From: Sphaerochaeta sp. Phil3 | GTDB lineage: Bacteria > Spirochaetota > Spirochaetia > Sphaerochaetales > Sphaerochaetaceae | Assembly: GCA_001940825.1 (NCBI GenBank) | Contig: MSGT01000058.1 | Coordinates: 1 to 64,000, forward strand | DNA: 64,000 nucleotides | Direction of reading: 5' to 3' | Shown: piece after piece, positions 18,423-53,421 of the stretch | Position numbering within the stretch: position 1 is the first letter of the stretch | Layout: each line of letters begins with the position of its first letter | The notes under the pieces: generated by a model | What the model saw: only the letters and a program-made list of their open reading frames with translations | The model's database searches: none | What the model was told of the DNA's origin: nothing | Program-made: the position numbers and the translations under genes

Positions 18423-18682
18423 TGGCCCAGACGCTGATGAATAATTCAACTAAACACTTTGGACATCGACCACATGTTTTAGTCAAACGCACCGACTTGG
18501 AAGGAGACGCACAATGTTACATATCGGAACATTCCATAGGCCTTTGTACCAATATGCAACACAGCATTTCCAAATGTGGGTTTTCATAACAAAATGTCTA
18601 AAAGGCTGTAACTCCCGGCCGTCAGGATTGTTTAGCTTCTGTCAACATCGTTTTACAAAAACGGATGGAAGGAGAGACTATC

Positions 18683-21099
18683 ATGAAGAAATGGACTACG
18701 ATCCTGCTGCTGGCTCTGCTGGCGGCTCTATGCCTTGCAGTGTCATGCAAGAACGACCCCCCCCGCACGAGCATGAGTTCGACCTGACGGCGTGGGAATA
18801 CAACGAGGACAGCCACTGGCACAAGGCCGTCTGCGAACACACGGATGAGGTCAAGGACAAGGCCGCACACACCTGGGACGATGGCACGGTGACCACGCCC
18901 GCCGCTCCGGGGAGCGCCGGTGTCATGACGTACAAATGCACCGTATGCAAACACACCAAGACCGGGCCGATCCCCGCACCGGGAGCGACGAGGTTCGCCT
19001 CGACATACACTCCGGGAAAGACCTACGACAAGACCCCCATCGAAATAGACAGAACCAAGGTCGTCAGGGTCGTTGGCGGAACGGAAGTCCCCGTCCCGCA
19101 GGAGCAGATCCTGAAAATCGAATTCAAGACCAAGGATGCGGAGGACAGTGCATACACGGCCACAGCCCCTACAATTGCGGGAAGCTACACCGTCAAGGTG
19201 ACCGTGGCGAAGACGCCCGACTGGGAGGAGGACGCCTTCACCCATGACTTCGTCATAGGCGCCATAGTGCTCGTGGGATCCTATACGCACCCCACAGAAC
19301 TTACCTACAACGGGGAAGAACAAACCCTAACGGACCTGACGCTGAAACATGGAGACCTGGGTTGCATACTCGAAGGGGATGAGGTTCGCATCACGTATAT
19401 CAAGACCAAGGGTGCGGATGCAGGGACCCCATATGTGTCGTACGCCATTCCTGGAGGGCAGAACTACCGCTCCGAATTCAACGACTCCAAGTTCGGCATC
19501 AAGGCCACGGTCAAGCCCATAGTGGTGAAGACCTCCATAAACGCAACGAAGGTGTATGACGGAAGCGCAACGATCATCCACAAGGACTGGGCGGCGGTAC
19601 CCGAGATCCTGTCAGAGGACAAGGGGAATCTAGAGCTCTCGATCGGAATGAAGGACGCGAATGTGGTCTCGGAAGGGAACGCCGTCTTCTGCAGCTTCCA
19701 ATACAGAAACAGCTCTGGCACGGCATCGCCTACAGGCAACTACGAGATCGACAAAAGCCTGCTGAAAGGCACGATAGCTCCTAAGGACGTCAGTTGCGAA
19801 TACGAACATCCATACGATGGGAAAGACATCGTAGTTGTAGAGAAGAAACACATCAAGGGAGCCGTCGAGAACGACAACGTCACGTTGAAAGTAAAGATGA
19901 GCGGCAAGGATGTCGGAGCCTCTGTGACTGATGATTTTTACTTATACGTCGATGGAAAGCCATCCGGGAACTACATCGTCAGAAAAAGCAATGTGCAGGT
20001 CAAGATTGTGGCCAAGAGGCTCATCGGAACCTTTGAGGACGTCTTCACATACAATGGCACAGACCAATTCATAGTCGAAGACCTGTCCGGATTCGAAGGG
20101 TTCGCCGAAGGGGATGACATCAAGGACTTCGTGCTTCTCGTCGTCTTCATGGGCAAGGATGCAGGTTCGGAGCTGAACTACTGCAACCTCCGGAAAAAGG
20201 GCGAAGCGATGGGCTATGATAACTACAAAATCGACCTGGAAGACATCCATTCCTCCATCGTGCCCAAGAAGCTCACCGCAAAGACAATCCCTACGAAGGT
20301 GTACGATGGAACCAACATCGTCGAGCTTCCATACGACCAGCTTGAAGGACTGATGGGCAGCGACGATCCGATCCTCTCGATAACCATGTCCGGCAAGGAT
20401 GTAGGGTCCGAATACAAAAGCCATGTGGTGAAATTCGTCAGCGGGGCGCTTGCAAGCAACTACTACGTGGCCGACGACGATCCAAACATGCTGCAGGCGA
20501 ACATCACCAAGAAGGTGCTCAAGTTTCCATCATTGAACGTCACGGCACGGCCCGATTCCGAGCGCTACGTGTACGTCCATCTTGGAAAGGCCAACCTTGA
20601 GGGATGGGACAACAAACCGGTTGGCGACGATGTCGTGAAGGTCAAGTACGAAAACAATTCCGTATCTTGGGCTCTTGGCAAATCTTTCCTCGCCGCCAGC
20701 GGAAGTGGAACCATTTCCGAAATAAGCAATGGAAATTATGATGTCCAGATACCAGCTACCGGCAGCAGGATAACGGTTATTCCAGCATCAGTAGATTGGG
20801 GGAAACTCGAAATAGGAAAAGCGAGGACATTTACTGTGAGTGACAAAACGGTCAAGTTCTATGGTTCCTTTGGAATGGAAAAAGACAGAGTCATGAAGAT
20901 AACCAATAAAGACGGAGCGGTAATGACAATGAAGAATCTCCTTACCCTAGGAGAAGCCTCTAAGAACACCATTCTCTACCAAGAGAATTTGGAAGGCAAC
21001 CAAGGAATACTCATCAAGAGTTATCCAAATGGTACCGGAGATTTCTATGTACACGGCCTTGAACCTGGTGAATACACCATCCTCCTTACGGACAATTAA
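18683..21099 (+). CDS. YDG-domain surface lipoprotein, frame broken at a C8 tract (candidate phase-variable gene)
   Basis: GGAAGGAGAG precedes ATG 18683, which opens MKKWTTILLLALLAALCLAVSC, a clear lipoprotein signal with lipobox. This frame stops 20 codons later. The long body is open in another frame, and the two meet at eight C residues (18757-18764) directly after the lipobox cysteine. One extra C, or two fewer, would join signal and body (SCKNDPPPHEHEFDL). The body has a His/Cys segment (AAHTWDDG, YKCTVCKHTKTG) and then repeated beta-domains with KVYDG (two clear copies), YNYGT-like and GNYEID phrases typical of YDG/MBG domains of adhesins. The track's start at 18514 gives an N-terminus that resembles nothing secreted. 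Phase variation, or a homopolymer sequencing error, are the two explanations. Confidence 0.75.
18757..18764 (+). repeat. Homopolymeric C8 tract
   Basis: Eight consecutive C bases lie 13-20 bases downstream of the lipobox cysteine codon region. They mark the point where the signal-peptide frame and the body frame diverge. Confidence 0.85.
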
Positions 21100-32712: not shown

Positions 32713-34272
32713 CTACAAGTCTTCCCCTGTAAAAAGGTCGTAGGCAAGTTTGACGTTTTTCCAGTTGTTGTCTCTGTCAAGCGCAAACCCCCGACCAATG
32801 CCATCGACGATTTGTCCTACACCAATTTCATTGAGCTTCTCTTCAAGTTCCCTTAAGAGAGCGGGGGCACTGCCAGGTTCTGTCGAACGACCGTCAAAAA
32901 TTATGTGAAGGAAAACATTGTTTTGGCCTAATTTCTTTGCAATCCTACAAATAGCCACAGCATAATTCATACTGCCATGCGAGGACCTATAAGAAAGATA
33001 TGTTAGTAGATGTAAAGACTTTTTCTTTTCAATGGAGCGTCCAACAGCCTCAATCAGGATGGGATTGTTTTCAAAAGTACCATCTTCTATGGCTTTGTCT
33101 ATTCTAATATCATCCTGAACGACACAACGCCCGGCACCAAGATTCATATGGCCAGCCTCCGAATTACCCGGCTTGCCATCACCAAGACCAACAGACTTGC
33201 CGCTGGCATCAAGTTTGGCGTATGCAAAACGGGAAAGAAGATCGTCCCAATAGGGCGTTGATGCAAGATGTATGGCATCATTACCGTCCCCCGTCCCAAG
33301 CCCCCAGCCGTCCAAAATAACCAAGAGAGCCTTTCTGTTTCTACCAAAACTGTAATCCTCAACCAAAGAATTGCCATCCATCGATACAGGCTTTTCTACG
33401 CCTAGGACATCCAAGATTGTAGGGGCAACGTCTCTCAATGAGCCATCGTTAAGACCGATTTTCCTATCCGATGCACCGTCAAGCAAAAAGAAGGCAACTT
33501 TGTTGGTGGTATGTGCAACATGAGGAGACCCTTTTTTTGTGTAAAGAGTTTCAATGTTGCCGTGGTCAGCTGTGATGGCGACGACATAGCCCTTTTCCAA
33601 AGCGGCTTTCACCACTTTCTCCAGGTTTTCACTTACAGCTTTGCAGGCCTTGATTTTTGCATCCGTGTTTGAAGTATGTCCAATGACATCACCATTTGCG
33701 AAATTGACAACGATGAAGTCGAATTTCCCAAGTCCCGCTATGACCTGGTTGGAAACCTGGACAAGGGACAACTCCGGCTTTTCATCAAACGGAATGCCTT
33801 TTGGAGAAGGAATGCAGCAGTCCACTTCTTTGTCAAAAGGTTCGTTTTCCCCTCCGTTGAAGAAGAACGTTACATGTGCATACTTTTCCGATTCCGCAAT
33901 GTGAAATTGAGTTTTGCCGTTTTCAGCCAACACCTTCCCAAGAGGTTCCTTTACGTGAAGGGGTGCAAAGGCAATGGGATAGGACATGAACTTTTCGTGA
34001 TATTGGGTAAGAAGTACAAAAAAGAGGTCGTCCAGTTTGTGTATTGGCACTTTGTCAAAAGAAGAATCGACGAACATATCGGTAAGCTCTATCTCTCGTT
34101 CTCCCCTACGGCAGCAAAAGACCATGCTATCGCCATTTGAAACTGCACCATCTTTACATACCCTTAGAGGAATCATGTGATAGTCGTCTATGCCGTTCTC
34201 ATATGCCTGTCTTACGAGCTTTATCAAAGAATTAGCACCCCTATCTTGGGTTGTGTTGCCTGTCATTTCCAT
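32713..34272 (-). CDS. Circularly permuted cofactor-independent phosphoglycerate mutase
   Basis: The protein contains every hallmark of iPGM, which interconverts 3- and 2-phosphoglycerate with Mn or Zn, but in rotated order. It begins with the second half of the phosphotransferase domain (YENGIDDYHMIPLRVC; SEKYAHVTFFFNGG). It continues through the C-terminal phosphatase part (FANGDVIGHTSN; TADHGN; HVAHTTN; DVAPTILDVLG). Only then come the canonical N-terminus LLVILDGWGLG, the phospho-serine motif GNSEAGHMNLGAGR, and FDGRSTEP and GRGFALDRDNNW. The new termini correspond to about residue 210 of ordinary iPGM, and a short linker (EDYSFGRNRK) joins the old ends. All metal and catalytic residues I can place are kept. 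The gene follows an ABC importer operon by 24 bases. Confidence 0.9.
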   Translation of the reverse strand: MEMTGNTTQDRGANSLIKLVRQAYENGIDDYHMIPLRVCKDGAVSNGDSMVFCCRRGEREIELTDMFVDSSFDKVPIHKLDDLFFVLLTQYHEKFMSYPIAFAPLHVKEPLGKVLAENGKTQFHIAESEKYAHVTFFFNGGENEPFDKEVDCCIPSPKGIPFDEKPELSLVQVSNQVIAGLGKFDFIVVNFANGDVIGHTSNTDAKIKACKAVSENLEKVVKAALEKGYVVAITADHGNIETLYTKKGSPHVAHTTNKVAFFLLDGASDRKIGLNDGSLRDVAPTILDVLGVEKPVSMDGNSLVEDYSFGRNRKALLVILDGWGLGTGDGNDAIHLASTPYWDDLLSRFAYAKLDASGKSVGLGDGKPGNSEAGHMNLGAGRCVVQDDIRIDKAIEDGTFENNPILIEAVGRSIEKKKSLHLLTYLSYRSSHGSMNYAVAICRIAKKLGQNNVFLHIIFDGRSTEPGSAPALLRELEEKLNEIGVGQIVDGIGRGFALDRDNNWKNVKLAYDLFTGEDL

Positions 34273-48206: not shown

Positions 48207-48375
48207 AAACAGAACAGAACTTTCTATTGGTTCTTGTATCACTTTAATTAGCCATTATTATACCATCTTAGCTAAAATTTGAGAAAAAACCTCAAACAAG
48301 CCATTGTTTTTTTATCCTGCTCCAATTATCATTTTGAATGAGGATGCTCCCCTCAAGGCGAATGAGGAACCAAAG

Positions 48376-49680
48376 ATGATTATCAGCTATACATTCGGAA
48401 ACTTCCGAACATTCAAAGAGGACGCTACCCTTTCAATGAAGGCTTCCTCCCAAACAACTTTCAATGATAGGCTCATAAGGACGAAAGAAGGCAGGATCCT
48501 TCCGGTCGCTGTCATATATGGAGCCAATGCAAGTGGAAAATCCAATCTGATTCTCTCTCTCATGGTGTTCAGAGACATTGTCCTGAATGGTTCAATCACA
48601 ACCCAGAGCCCTCAGACTACTATTGCAAATCTTGAACTATTACCAAGTCTGTGCACGGAGGAAGATGGACCAATGCAGTTCTCCATTGAGTTCATTACCA
48701 AGGAGGACCATTTCAGATACTCCATTGGAGTGAAAGTTGGAAGGCTTGAGAGAATTCAAAGGAAAGTGGTCTATGAGAAACTTGAATACTTCAAGAAAAA
48801 ACAATCCATTACTCTTTTTGAACGCAATGATTCTTCAATACGCATTGCAAGGGATAAGGATTCAATCAAAGTTCTTTCAGTTACGAAATCCTTTCTGGAC
48901 AATGTCGAAGAGGTACTTTGCAAGAACACTGATAAAACGGACATATTCCTAGCCAGAGGGTTCAAGTCCACGATATGTGGTCCCATTGCCGATTCAGTCA
49001 TGGAATTCTTCAGGAATGGGATTACCGCAATAACGGACTTTCCACTCAACAATCCAAGACTAGAACATGTACCGATTGAAGCGCAAAACTGTTTGCTTTG
49101 GAATGAAACTCTTGATAAGTTCGTCAAGAAAGCCGACTTTGGTTCCCATGGGATTTGTTTCAAGTGCGAGGAAGAAGATGATAAAGGAACAAAAAACAAC
49201 GCAGACCTTTTCTCAATATACGATAGAAATGGAAGCAAAGTCCTCGTAAACGCAGACCTAATGGAATCCAGAGGAACAATTAAGCTCATTGATTTTGCAA
49301 TCCTATTCTCTGAACATTTTTCAAATGGGAATGCGTTGGTCATTGATGAGTTTGATTCATCCTTGCATCCTGAAATTGTAAAAGGGATAATCTCCGTTTT
49401 CAGCGACCCTTCCATAAACAAAGCCGGAGCCCAGCTGATATTCACAACTCACAACCCAATATATCTCAGCAACAAACTCTTCAGAAGAGATCAGATATTC
49501 TTCGTCGAAAAGGACAGCTCTTCATACCAGAGCGACCTGTACACACTCGCGGATTTCGGGTCAACGGAAGTAAGGAACGATGAGAACTACATGATCAACT
49601 ACTTCAAGGGAAAGTATGCAACCCTTCCGTACATCGACTTTTCGGAGATTGTAAACAATGGAAAAGAGGAAACGATATAA
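48376..49680 (+). CDS. AAA ATPase of an AbiL/RloA-like defence pair
   Basis: The N-terminus MIISYTFGNFRTFKEDATLSM is that of AAA_15/AAA_21 OLD-like ATPases. Walker A is YGANASGKSNLI, and the signature and Walker B region reads NALVIDEFDSSLHPEIVKGI. A final IFTTHNPIYLSN is the H-loop region. ATG 48376 is preceded by GAGGAACC; the track adds 24 codons. At 434 aa it matches AbiLi/RloA. It overlaps the next gene by 23 bases. Such pairs abort phage infection: the ATPase senses or holds the effector encoded beside it. Confidence 0.88.
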   Translation: MIISYTFGNFRTFKEDATLSMKASSQTTFNDRLIRTKEGRILPVAVIYGANASGKSNLILSLMVFRDIVLNGSITTQSPQTTIANLELLPSLCTEEDGPMQFSIEFITKEDHFRYSIGVKVGRLERIQRKVVYEKLEYFKKKQSITLFERNDSSIRIARDKDSIKVLSVTKSFLDNVEEVLCKNTDKTDIFLARGFKSTICGPIADSVMEFFRNGITAITDFPLNNPRLEHVPIEAQNCLLWNETLDKFVKKADFGSHGICFKCEEEDDKGTKNNADLFSIYDRNGSKVLVNADLMESRGTIKLIDFAILFSEHFSNGNALVIDEFDSSLHPEIVKGIISVFSDPSINKAGAQLIFTTHNPIYLSNKLFRRDQIFFVEKDSSSYQSDLYTLADFGSTEVRNDENYMINYFKGKYATLPYIDFSEIVNNGKEETI

Positions 49681-50328: not shown

Positions 50329-53300
50329 TCAGGGAAACATCAATCCAGACAAACTGTCATTAGATCCAAGCAAAGTTTCCGCAATCTTCGCGTTTTCCAC
50401 ATGGATCACTACTTTTGGCTCTTTCAAGTCGAAAGAAACCTTTGGACTTTCTTTTATCGAGCCTCCAAGAAGATTCAAATCTCCAAATAAGACGTCCAAA
50501 CCATCGAAAACACCAAACCGCAAGTAACAACAATCCTGTTCAAAAACAAAGACCTTCCTCTCTTTCAAGTACCTAAGGGATTCAAGCTGTGCATCGGAAT
50601 TGACAGCTTTGACCAAAGAAGAGGTTCTAATCTCTACTGGTACGCCTCGTTCAATCGCACAAAGAAGTTCATCAATAAGCTTCAAAGACGCCCTAGACAA
50701 AAACACTTCTGGACTACTTACGACAATCGACTTGGAAGCTTTTCTCACAAGAGAAACCAACAAATCGAATATATCATATTGTGAATAGAAACATTTTTCA
50801 TTGAGCAAACCTCCAACATCCCCATTTGAATGCAAAAGCATTTCAGAACCAAGAACATAACCCAGCTTTCTATATGAAGACAGCCTTTTTGCATACATCC
50901 TTGCATATTGCGGAACACAAATATCTACGTAATCATAAATGCAGACCTTATCTTTGCTCACAAACTCCCTAGCTATTCTACCAGCATATTGACTAACAAC
51001 ACCTTCCCATCCAACAGGAGAAACGACCATAAGGGTATCAAGATACGGAATATCTACGCCCTCCCCCAAATACTGACCGGTGGAAATCACAACAAATGAA
51101 CCATCAATGTTGGATTCAAGAATCTCATTCACTTTTTTACGATCCACCGCTTTCATCTCTCCAGTCAAAACAATCGAAGAAATGCCCCGCTCGTTTAGTT
51201 TTGCCTCCAGAATTCTTGTATGCTCAACCAACTTTGTCAGGATAAGGATTCTTTTCCCTGAATCCTTCAAAGCCACAACATCGTCTACAATGAGACGGTT
51301 CCTTGCATCGTCAATCGAAAGCTCCTTGATAGCTACAACATTGTTGAAAGGCTTTGCCTCAAAAACCGATAACATTGAATTTGTAAATCTTGGAACGAAA
51401 GTCTGCGCCAAACCTCTTTCATATGCAAGTTTATTAGCACCGTATTGAAACACCACAGGACCACATTGCGAGTGTATAAGACATTCAAGGCCATCAAGTC
51501 TTTTCACAGTCGCAGACAACCCATATACATACTTTGGGCGAACGGCATTCATGACCTTTAGAAAAGAATCAGCCGCTATATGATGACACTCATCGACTAT
51601 CACCATTCCATAGTCTCTTATGAACTCTGGCATACGAGAAGCAATGGACTGAACCATTGCTATATCAACGTATGAAGACAATGAGTCCCTTGCTCCTCCA
51701 TAGACACCAATACCTGTTTTGTTTGTACGTTTTCCTGTTCTTTTCAATGGAGCATTTCCAACAACAAGAAACTTCTCAAGACTGGCCTTCCATTGATCCA
51801 TTAGTTTTTGTTTCTGAACAAGCACCAGAGTTTTCTCTTTGCGTTCTGCAATTAGCTTTGCAGCAACAACAGTCTTGCCAAAAGAGGTTGCGGCATTAAG
51901 GATACCAATTTCAACGGCTTTCATTGAGTCCACAGCTTGAATCTGAACCTCCTTAAGAGTTCCATTGAAATTAACATCCAACCCAGTATTGTGGGCTCTT
52001 AAGTCTTTGAGCTCATAATCTATACCAGATGCTTTCAAATACCGTTCAAGTTCATCTTTCAAACCTCTTGGCAACTGGAGGACTTCGTCAGATTCCAGAA
52101 ACGATTCGACGAAGGAATTCAGTTTATCAGAAACATAACCTTTGTTTCTCTTTCGAGATTTGAAGTAGTTAGGATTCATAAAACAAGCCAGACGTTTGCA
52201 ACCATTCTGGAGCCTTGCTGTCATCGCACTTTTAGGAATACTCAAACCAGAAGACAAGAACACTGGGAGAGCTTTTGGAAGACAATCCTTCTTGGTTACT
52301 TTAGGCAGTCTTTTCTTCCAAATAACATCCTTTTCCAGTTCAGAACCATCATTAAAGAAGTCTAGACCGTTATCAGAGCCCCTGTGAGTTACAAGATACA
52401 AGTCGATATCGTCTTCAGAGTATCTTGGAACAGATGACAGGAATGAAATCTGATCAGGATAGACATTGAAATCGTTGTCAACAAATACCGTCCCTTTGCC
52501 CTCTTTTCTTCTAGCTGCGCCAGCCATTAAAGGCATTAGTATCAGATTTCCAAAACAACCTTCTTCGATTTCGTCTTGAGTTGGGAATACCCTATCATAG
52601 GATTTCAGACTTACAGTCCTTGAATTCTCACATGCTTCATCAAGGAACGAAAACGCCAATCTTCTTGCTTTGAAGGCAGGAACATCCTCACTAAAGAACA
52701 ACCAAAGATGTGCACCTTTTCCACTGAACGATTGCTCAATTGCCATCTGAAAACCCGATTTTCTAGCAACACTAGCTAATTCCAGAGCATCTTTTCTCCA
52801 CGTAGACTCATCCAAATCAATTGCAACGAACCTACATACATTTCCTGGAAGCATTGCATATATACCTACAGCTCCTTTGCCATGATCATTGTAATTGTAC
52901 ATGTTCCTAGAACAAATAATCTCAGGAGAAAGGCTTTCGTATAACCGGCATTGACAATCAGAACAACTCGGTCTAGAACCAACGGATTCTTTGTCCTTGA
53001 ATTTTTTGAGCAAACAGTTCTCAGTCCAGGCATTTAAGCAAACAGGATAATACGATGCTTTACTTGTCTTTTCATTCCAATTCCTTACAGCATACACATC
53101 TCTTCTGCCATGAAACAATTCGAAAAGAAAGTTCGCCTTTTCGCTTGGAGATGCCTGCATAGACAATGATGACTCTCCCAACCTGATTTCAACCCTTGAA
53201 GATGAAATTCTTTCCAAACGTCCCTGAATCGAACTTTTCCGTTGTTCTAATTCAGAGATCCTTCTCTGAAGCGCAACGATTTCATTTCCAATATCTTGAA

Positions 53301-53421
53301 TCTTGTCATCGACATCAATCAAAGAAGAAACCAAGGATTCTTCGCTCTCCAAGGAAAAAGAAGAACCCTCTATGTGCAAATCATCAATGAATGTAAAACT
53401 GGCATCTACATCATACATCAT
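50329..53421 (-). CDS. Primase-helicase fusion of the TOTE conflict type
   Basis: The 1030-aa protein has a coiled coil (about residues 28-75), an archaeo-eukaryotic primase-like domain (about 90-370) with AIDLDE and SFSGKGAHLWLFF, and a CSDCQC cysteine cluster before it. An SF2 helicase (about 470-840) follows with ATSFGKTVVAAK, VIVDECHH, GLSATVKR and YAGRIARE. The last 160 residues are PLD-like, but the HKD is lost (YLRFGVFDGLDVLFGDLNLL). This matches TOTE systems, which pair such a primase with a helicase and are predicted anti-invader NTP-dependent devices. The gene converges on the AbiL-like pair. No strong ribosome site is seen. Confidence 0.82.
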   Translation of the reverse strand: MMYDVDASFTFIDDLHIEGSSFSLESEESLVSSLIDVDDKIQDIGNEIVALQRRISELEQRKSSIQGRLERISSSRVEIRLGESSLSMQASPSEKANFLFELFHGRRDVYAVRNWNEKTSKASYYPVCLNAWTENCLLKKFKDKESVGSRPSCSDCQCRLYESLSPEIICSRNMYNYNDHGKGAVGIYAMLPGNVCRFVAIDLDESTWRKDALELASVARKSGFQMAIEQSFSGKGAHLWLFFSEDVPAFKARRLAFSFLDEACENSRTVSLKSYDRVFPTQDEIEEGCFGNLILMPLMAGAARRKEGKGTVFVDNDFNVYPDQISFLSSVPRYSEDDIDLYLVTHRGSDNGLDFFNDGSELEKDVIWKKRLPKVTKKDCLPKALPVFLSSGLSIPKSAMTARLQNGCKRLACFMNPNYFKSRKRNKGYVSDKLNSFVESFLESDEVLQLPRGLKDELERYLKASGIDYELKDLRAHNTGLDVNFNGTLKEVQIQAVDSMKAVEIGILNAATSFGKTVVAAKLIAERKEKTLVLVQKQKLMDQWKASLEKFLVVGNAPLKRTGKRTNKTGIGVYGGARDSLSSYVDIAMVQSIASRMPEFIRDYGMVIVDECHHIAADSFLKVMNAVRPKYVYGLSATVKRLDGLECLIHSQCGPVVFQYGANKLAYERGLAQTFVPRFTNSMLSVFEAKPFNNVVAIKELSIDDARNRLIVDDVVALKDSGKRILILTKLVEHTRILEAKLNERGISSIVLTGEMKAVDRKKVNEILESNIDGSFVVISTGQYLGEGVDIPYLDTLMVVSPVGWEGVVSQYAGRIAREFVSKDKVCIYDYVDICVPQYARMYAKRLSSYRKLGYVLGSEMLLHSNGDVGGLLNEKCFYSQYDIFDLLVSLVRKASKSIVVSSPEVFLSRASLKLIDELLCAIERGVPVEIRTSSLVKAVNSDAQLESLRYLKERKVFVFEQDCCYLRFGVFDGLDVLFGDLNLLGGSIKESPKVSFDLKEPKVVIHVENAKIAETLLGSNDSLSGLMFP

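Follow-up and report, generated by a model that had tools for sequence, protein, structure and literature searches.

The window, that is, the whole 64-kb stretch of DNA that was analysed, carries on its forward strand a lipoprotein gene in which the signal sequence and the body occupy different reading frames and meet at a run of C residues. The features of this locus are as follows.

18671..18678, + strand: ribosome-binding site region AAGGAGAG, 5' of the ATG (from the sequence)
18683..18756, + strand: ATG, lipoprotein signal peptide with the lipobox LAVSC, and first mature residues (from translation; the C36 paralogue is 85% identical here)
18757..18764, + strand: poly-C tract of 8 C, assembled in the off state; the frames join at 9 C
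18765..18787, + strand: out-of-frame tail at 8 C, ending in TGA; the off product has 34 aa (from translation)
18766..21099, + strand: lipoprotein body in frame 1, 777 codons plus TAA, with an N-terminal region of the HEHEF/HTWD type followed by YDG domains
20263..20475, + strand: best of three Pfam YDG stretches, residues 502-572 of P0001 (PF18657, E 1e-14)

The reading from ATG 18683 in frame 2 is MKKWTTILLLALLAALCLAVSC, followed by KND, and contains an n-region, a hydrophobic core and a Cys-bearing lipobox (Cys22 codon, 18746-18748), as expected of a bacterial lipoprotein; the lipobox was assigned by eye from the sequence rather than with a dedicated signal predictor. The codon score of this signal stretch was weak (0.08), yet the stretch is conserved in the C36 paralogue. 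The 8-C run starts eight bases past the lipobox Cys codon and 74 nt past the start of the ATG. With 8 C, translation reads MKKWTTILLLALLAALCLAVSCKNDPPRTSMSST and then reaches a stop, giving the 34-aa product, whereas with 9 C the signal is fused to the 777-codon body. An earlier note on this DNA had described a complete lipoprotein signal in frame 2, which meets the body at exactly eight C residues near the lipobox and is joined to it by one additional C, and our readings agree with this description on each point. No promoter was recognised for the window gene, and no G tract of the tp0126/porA type was found between –35 and –10.

In frame 1, no stop interrupts the body before the TAA at 21097-21099 (779 codons if the codons of the run itself are counted). 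Its codon score was 0.29 bits per codon, which indicates coding sequence when compared with house-keeping windows (0.37 +/- 0.11) and wrong frames (–0.35 +/- 0.17). The earlier note had proposed a YDG/MBG-like body of 800 residues. The YDG part of this proposal stood, because the Pfam YDG family (PF18657) matched the body significantly in three stretches (E 1e-14; 54.8 bits vs a cut-off of 25); the MBG part did not, because the MBG domain (PF17883) scored below its curated cut-off in the body (14.9 vs 23.3 bits), and the length was slightly lower than proposed. The N-terminal region of the HEHEF/HTWD type also occurs in other lipoproteins of the same genome. The AlphaFold model of the body was uninformative, with a mean pLDDT of 32, and no significant match of the window protein was found among solved structures.

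We then considered how unusual the tract is. The 8-C run is the sole C or G run of at least 7 in the 64-kb window, in which the next longest are two C6 runs. Since a first-order model expects about one C8 per 64 kb, the length of the run is by itself unremarkable, and the evidence lies in its position and genome context. The run makes up 0.3% of the gene, yet it is the site of the only frame break of the gene. The search of the window for RNA families returned two tRNAs only. Among the other genes of the window, that at 32713-34272 (–) encodes a phosphoglycerate mutase (iPGM) that looks circularly permuted within one open frame, the C-terminal metalloenzyme part coming first and the usual N-terminus (LLVILDGWGLG...) starting from near residue 316. 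In the lower-GC half, a TOTE conflict-type primase/helicase/PLD protein (50329-53421, –) and an AAA_21 ATPase (48304-49680, +) are possible defence genes.

We surveyed C and G runs across the genome (2.36 Mb in 72 contigs, probably a metagenome assembly), and found 32 distinct runs of 8-10 (eight of 8, fifteen of 9 and nine of 10) together with 11 of exactly 7; the distribution peaks at 9, and no run is longer than 10. In comparison, 10 genomes of congeners contained 0-2 C/G runs of at least 8 each. Four of the 32 runs of at least 8, the window run included, lie directly after the lipobox of a lipoprotein gene:

18757-18764 (window gene): 8 C, on at 9
C36:22554: 9 C, on at 8; BspA-type LRR body; signal peptide DNA 85% identical to that of the window gene
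C33:15446: 9 G, on at 10; unrelated lipoprotein with Listeria-Bacteroides repeat domains
C49:9196: 9 G, on at 10; unrelated lipoprotein with carboxypeptidase-regulatory-like domains

Such lipobox-adjacent positions account for 4 of the 32 runs vs 0.7% of random positions (binomial chance about 8e-5), and a lipoprotein start lies within 200 nt downstream of 9 of the 32 runs vs 2.4% at random (about 7e-8); these binomials used n = 34, which is slightly conservative, and with categories picked post hoc and a baseline taken from one window they serve as a guide only. All four lipobox tracts were assembled off-frame, which is not itself significant because its chance with random lengths is about 0.2. 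A fifth candidate, at C29:5914 (L140), combines a poly-C8 with a 16-bp tandem duplication, GGTAATGATGTTATGC, within a lipoprotein signal, and both disturb the frame; given this duplication, a second kind of repeat switch may exist at that locus.

Further tracts of the genome lie elsewhere in genes. G8-G10 tracts occur near gene 3' ends at L139, L046, L044 and L015 (G000 C20:9988, C53:16774, C47:227 and C8:36015, respectively), where a change in length would alter the C-termini, as has been described for Helicobacter canadensis (PMC2823697). In addition, a 20-base repeat, AACTTAAATAAATAACTTAC, is present in six exact copies (G000 C3:30131, C25:9827, C27:3, C32:1883, C67:1 and C70:1), most of them located where a contig ends, and a C/G tract lies about 40-60 bases away from each copy. 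The repeat may mark the terminus of a mobile or recombining element by which poly-G promoters are placed.

A second group of tracts lies in promoters. Nine tracts in the genome read TTGACA, 6-9 nt, G7-9 and TANNNT, with a spacing of 15-17 nt, and the reversed pattern, used as a control, did not occur in the genome. A lipoprotein gene follows eight of the nine, of which seven tracts have at least 8 G and one has 7 G, and a poly-C version with a spacing of 17 lies upstream of another lipoprotein at C13:1492. The products of these promoters include LRR, beta-helix-like, PEGA, LpoB and Listeria-Bacteroides repeat proteins, and several of them contain the N-terminal region of the window protein (HEH..W..G..T..ATC...G..T.TC..C). 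We also observed that several lipoprotein genes have a conserved leader in common, TAGACTGACGNCGTCAGTCGGGGAGA...CATGCCCCGCTGTCAAAGGGGTA, which contains an inverted repeat and lies 3' of the poly-G promoters (loci L042, L043, L047, L052 and L054). The earlier note had read the arrangement at the window gene as that of a phase-variable surface protein. The arrangement is as it described, and this reading is supported by the paralogue at C36:22554, by the unrelated loci C33:15446 and C49:9196, and by the promoter-spacer tracts; in all, the association is seen behind four lipoboxes and in the promoters of at least seven lipoprotein genes.

In relatives, the poly-G spacer pattern was found in 47 of 139 genomes of the family, mostly in two other genera, with no occurrence of the reversed pattern, and in 103 of 391 genomes of a class-wide sample of Spirochaetia, with the reversed control matching in 2 of them. 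A lipoprotein start lies within 250 nt at 19 of the 23 testable spacer loci of the family, each from a different genome; because the few spacer loci examined outside the family were mixed, the lipoprotein link is shown for the family only. Within single genomes, promoters with identical hexamers and spacer flanks differ in the length of the tract (8/9, 9/10, 8/10 and 8/11 G). Although such promoters are multiple copies and not alleles of a single locus, they show that tract length changes faster than the flanks. Two congeners (L098 and L110) each have an intergenic C tract; the two tracts appear to be orthologous and their flanks are similar, but they count 9 vs 11 C. Among 30 sampled tracts from three related species, none was a convincing lipobox-adjacent coding tract, and the lipobox class may accordingly be special to the window species.

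No full-length orthologue of the window protein was found in the 139 family genomes, and a search of the genome collection with the protein itself gave no relative. Paralogues within its own genome aside, what the protein has in common with others of the genus is limited to the N-terminal 60-80 residues. Syntenic relatives (L143 and L147) lack the gene in their exonuclease-SHMT interval, and it is therefore probably a lineage-specific accessory insertion. The neighbouring SHMT gene is 77-82% identical to those of Sphaerochaetaceae or spirochaete MAGs, whose sources include horse faeces and rumen; this places the genome near these groups, and it probably belongs to the Sphaerochaetaceae.

Taken together, these observations make it highly likely that the window poly-C tract is a translational phase-variation switch that operates by slipped-strand mispairing, and that it is one locus in a lipoprotein phasome. 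In the proposed mechanism, slipped-strand mispairing at replication would alter the C run by a single base. With 8 C, the ribosome would leave the frame and produce a lipopeptide of 34 residues; at 9 C (or 6), the signal would be fused to the 777-residue YDG body, and the product would be lipidated and displayed on the surface. The window gene would then belong to a set of lipoproteins switched either after the lipobox, at the level of translation, or by poly-G spacing between –35 and –10, at the level of transcription. Slippage at tract 18757 presumably occurs, and the window protein is presumably exported and exposed on the surface. The benefit might be evasion of host immunity, phage or predators, or diversity of adhesion. 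For a tract of high mutability, a run of eight C is short, and we counted this against the switch reading, as we did the lack of a recognised promoter. Our overall judgement is that the contingency locus is real and probably works.

Among the alternatives, the one that survives best is an assembly or sequencing error, in which the true tract would be 9 C everywhere and the gene always on; we consider this unlikely. Because the genome looks like a metagenome assembly, a consensus error could in principle account for the difference between 8 and 9 C, and homopolymers are the usual site of such errors. However, about 35 homopolymers of at least 6 lie inside window ORFs that stay open, which indicates that the assembly is not error-prone in general. 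Tracts of the same length elsewhere in the genome are in frame (C25:4681, C36:67606 and C18:7486, the last a G9 tract in a signal sequence). In addition, three of the off-frame lipobox tracts need +1 and one needs –1, which rules out a uniform miscount, and four independent sequencing errors at one functional position are unlikely.

A slightly smaller probability attaches to programmed or transcriptional slippage on the C run, by which some product would be made from the 8 C allele with the DNA unchanged. Other bacteria, including Buchnera, are known to show slippage of the polymerase on homopolymers (PMC2831843), and low-level read-through could coexist with switching of the DNA. However, the other genes with lipobox tracts differ in base and in frame offset, which fits length variation better than a fixed recoding rule.

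It is less probable still that the gene is a fixed pseudogene, killed by a frameshift for which the tract is merely the site of the lesion. The assembled state is indeed off, and the gene appears dispensable, being absent from the syntenic interval in relatives; however, its 777 body codons contain no second lesion and retain a coding-like codon usage, the lesion falls on the one long C run of the window, and the same architecture is found at three other lipoproteins and at promoters. Finally, a switch of location, in which the body would be made at 8 C as a cytoplasmic protein from ATG 18514, is very improbable: this is the only alternative ATG start for the body with a good ribosome-binding site (AAGGAGA), and the frame is open from it, but we rejected it as the real N-terminus because 18514-18682 scores –0.32 in the body frame, as wrong frames do and far from coding sequence (0.37 +/- 0.11), and because, at the length assembled, the C36 paralogue lacks a comparable start further upstream.

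Beyond the translational switch proposed for the window gene, we somewhat favour a broader hypothesis, namely, that gut-associated spirochaetes outside the syphilis group carry phasomes dedicated to lipoproteins, with tens of poly-G/C tracts per genome and stochastic switching at two levels (across several families, the spacing of the promoter; in the window species, the post-lipobox codons). In this lineage, expression of lipoprotein genes may be switched mainly by the promoter class. Homopolymer phase variation has mostly been described in pathogens, and our literature search found no paper that names both Sphaerochaeta and phase variation. If the switch reading is true, uncultured gut spirochaetes vary their lipoprotein surface by the same trick as pathogens, which would bear on the host and phage interactions of commensals, and such genes would be mis-annotated as broken, or missed, in metagenome assemblies. 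If the phasome reading is true, each cell would have a different lipoprotein coat, and this larger phasome is of more interest than the single window gene.

The product of Mycoplasma fermentans p78 is a lipoprotein. The window gene resembles p78, a surface protein gene whose 5' end likewise carries a homopolymer; a one-base change in this poly-A tract inactivates p78 (PMC2831843). Unlike p78, a single locus with poly-A that encodes an ABC-transporter subunit, the tracts described here are poly-C/G and lie behind several lipoboxes. The poly-G phasomes of Helicobacter and Campylobacter similarly comprise many G tracts per genome in translational, promoter and C-terminal classes (PMC2823697). The present genome is like them in its many tracts and several switch classes; whereas their tracts serve varied surface proteins and modifying enzymes, many tract-linked genes here encode lipoproteins. 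In Neisseria meningitidis, porA, with its poly-G promoter spacer, is likewise a homopolymer contingency locus of a surface protein (PMC7864442), as are genes with coding tracts such as hmbR and hpuA (PMC3639595, PMC3786947), so that both transcription and translation are affected among these loci; the proteins and the lineage are unrelated to those of the window.

The closest comparison is with Treponema pallidum, in which poly-G tracts of 7-11 change in length in vivo and modulate the promoters of tpr genes (tprE/G/J, tprL) and tp0126 (PMC7864442). In tp0126, which encodes an OmpW homologue, the tract lies between –35 and –10, and 17 nt is the optimal spacing (PMC7864442). T. pallidum is also a spirochaete, and this tract layout is that of the promoter class found in the window genome. 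Unlike the T. pallidum system, which is transcriptional and acts on outer-membrane proteins, the window gene would switch the coding frame of a lipoprotein, and it belongs to a different family, one of gut spirochaetes. The coding-tract version is the standard translational switch (PMC2823697, PMC2831843), and the mechanism is already known, including in T. pallidum; what is new is the taxon, the focus on lipoproteins and the two levels of control.
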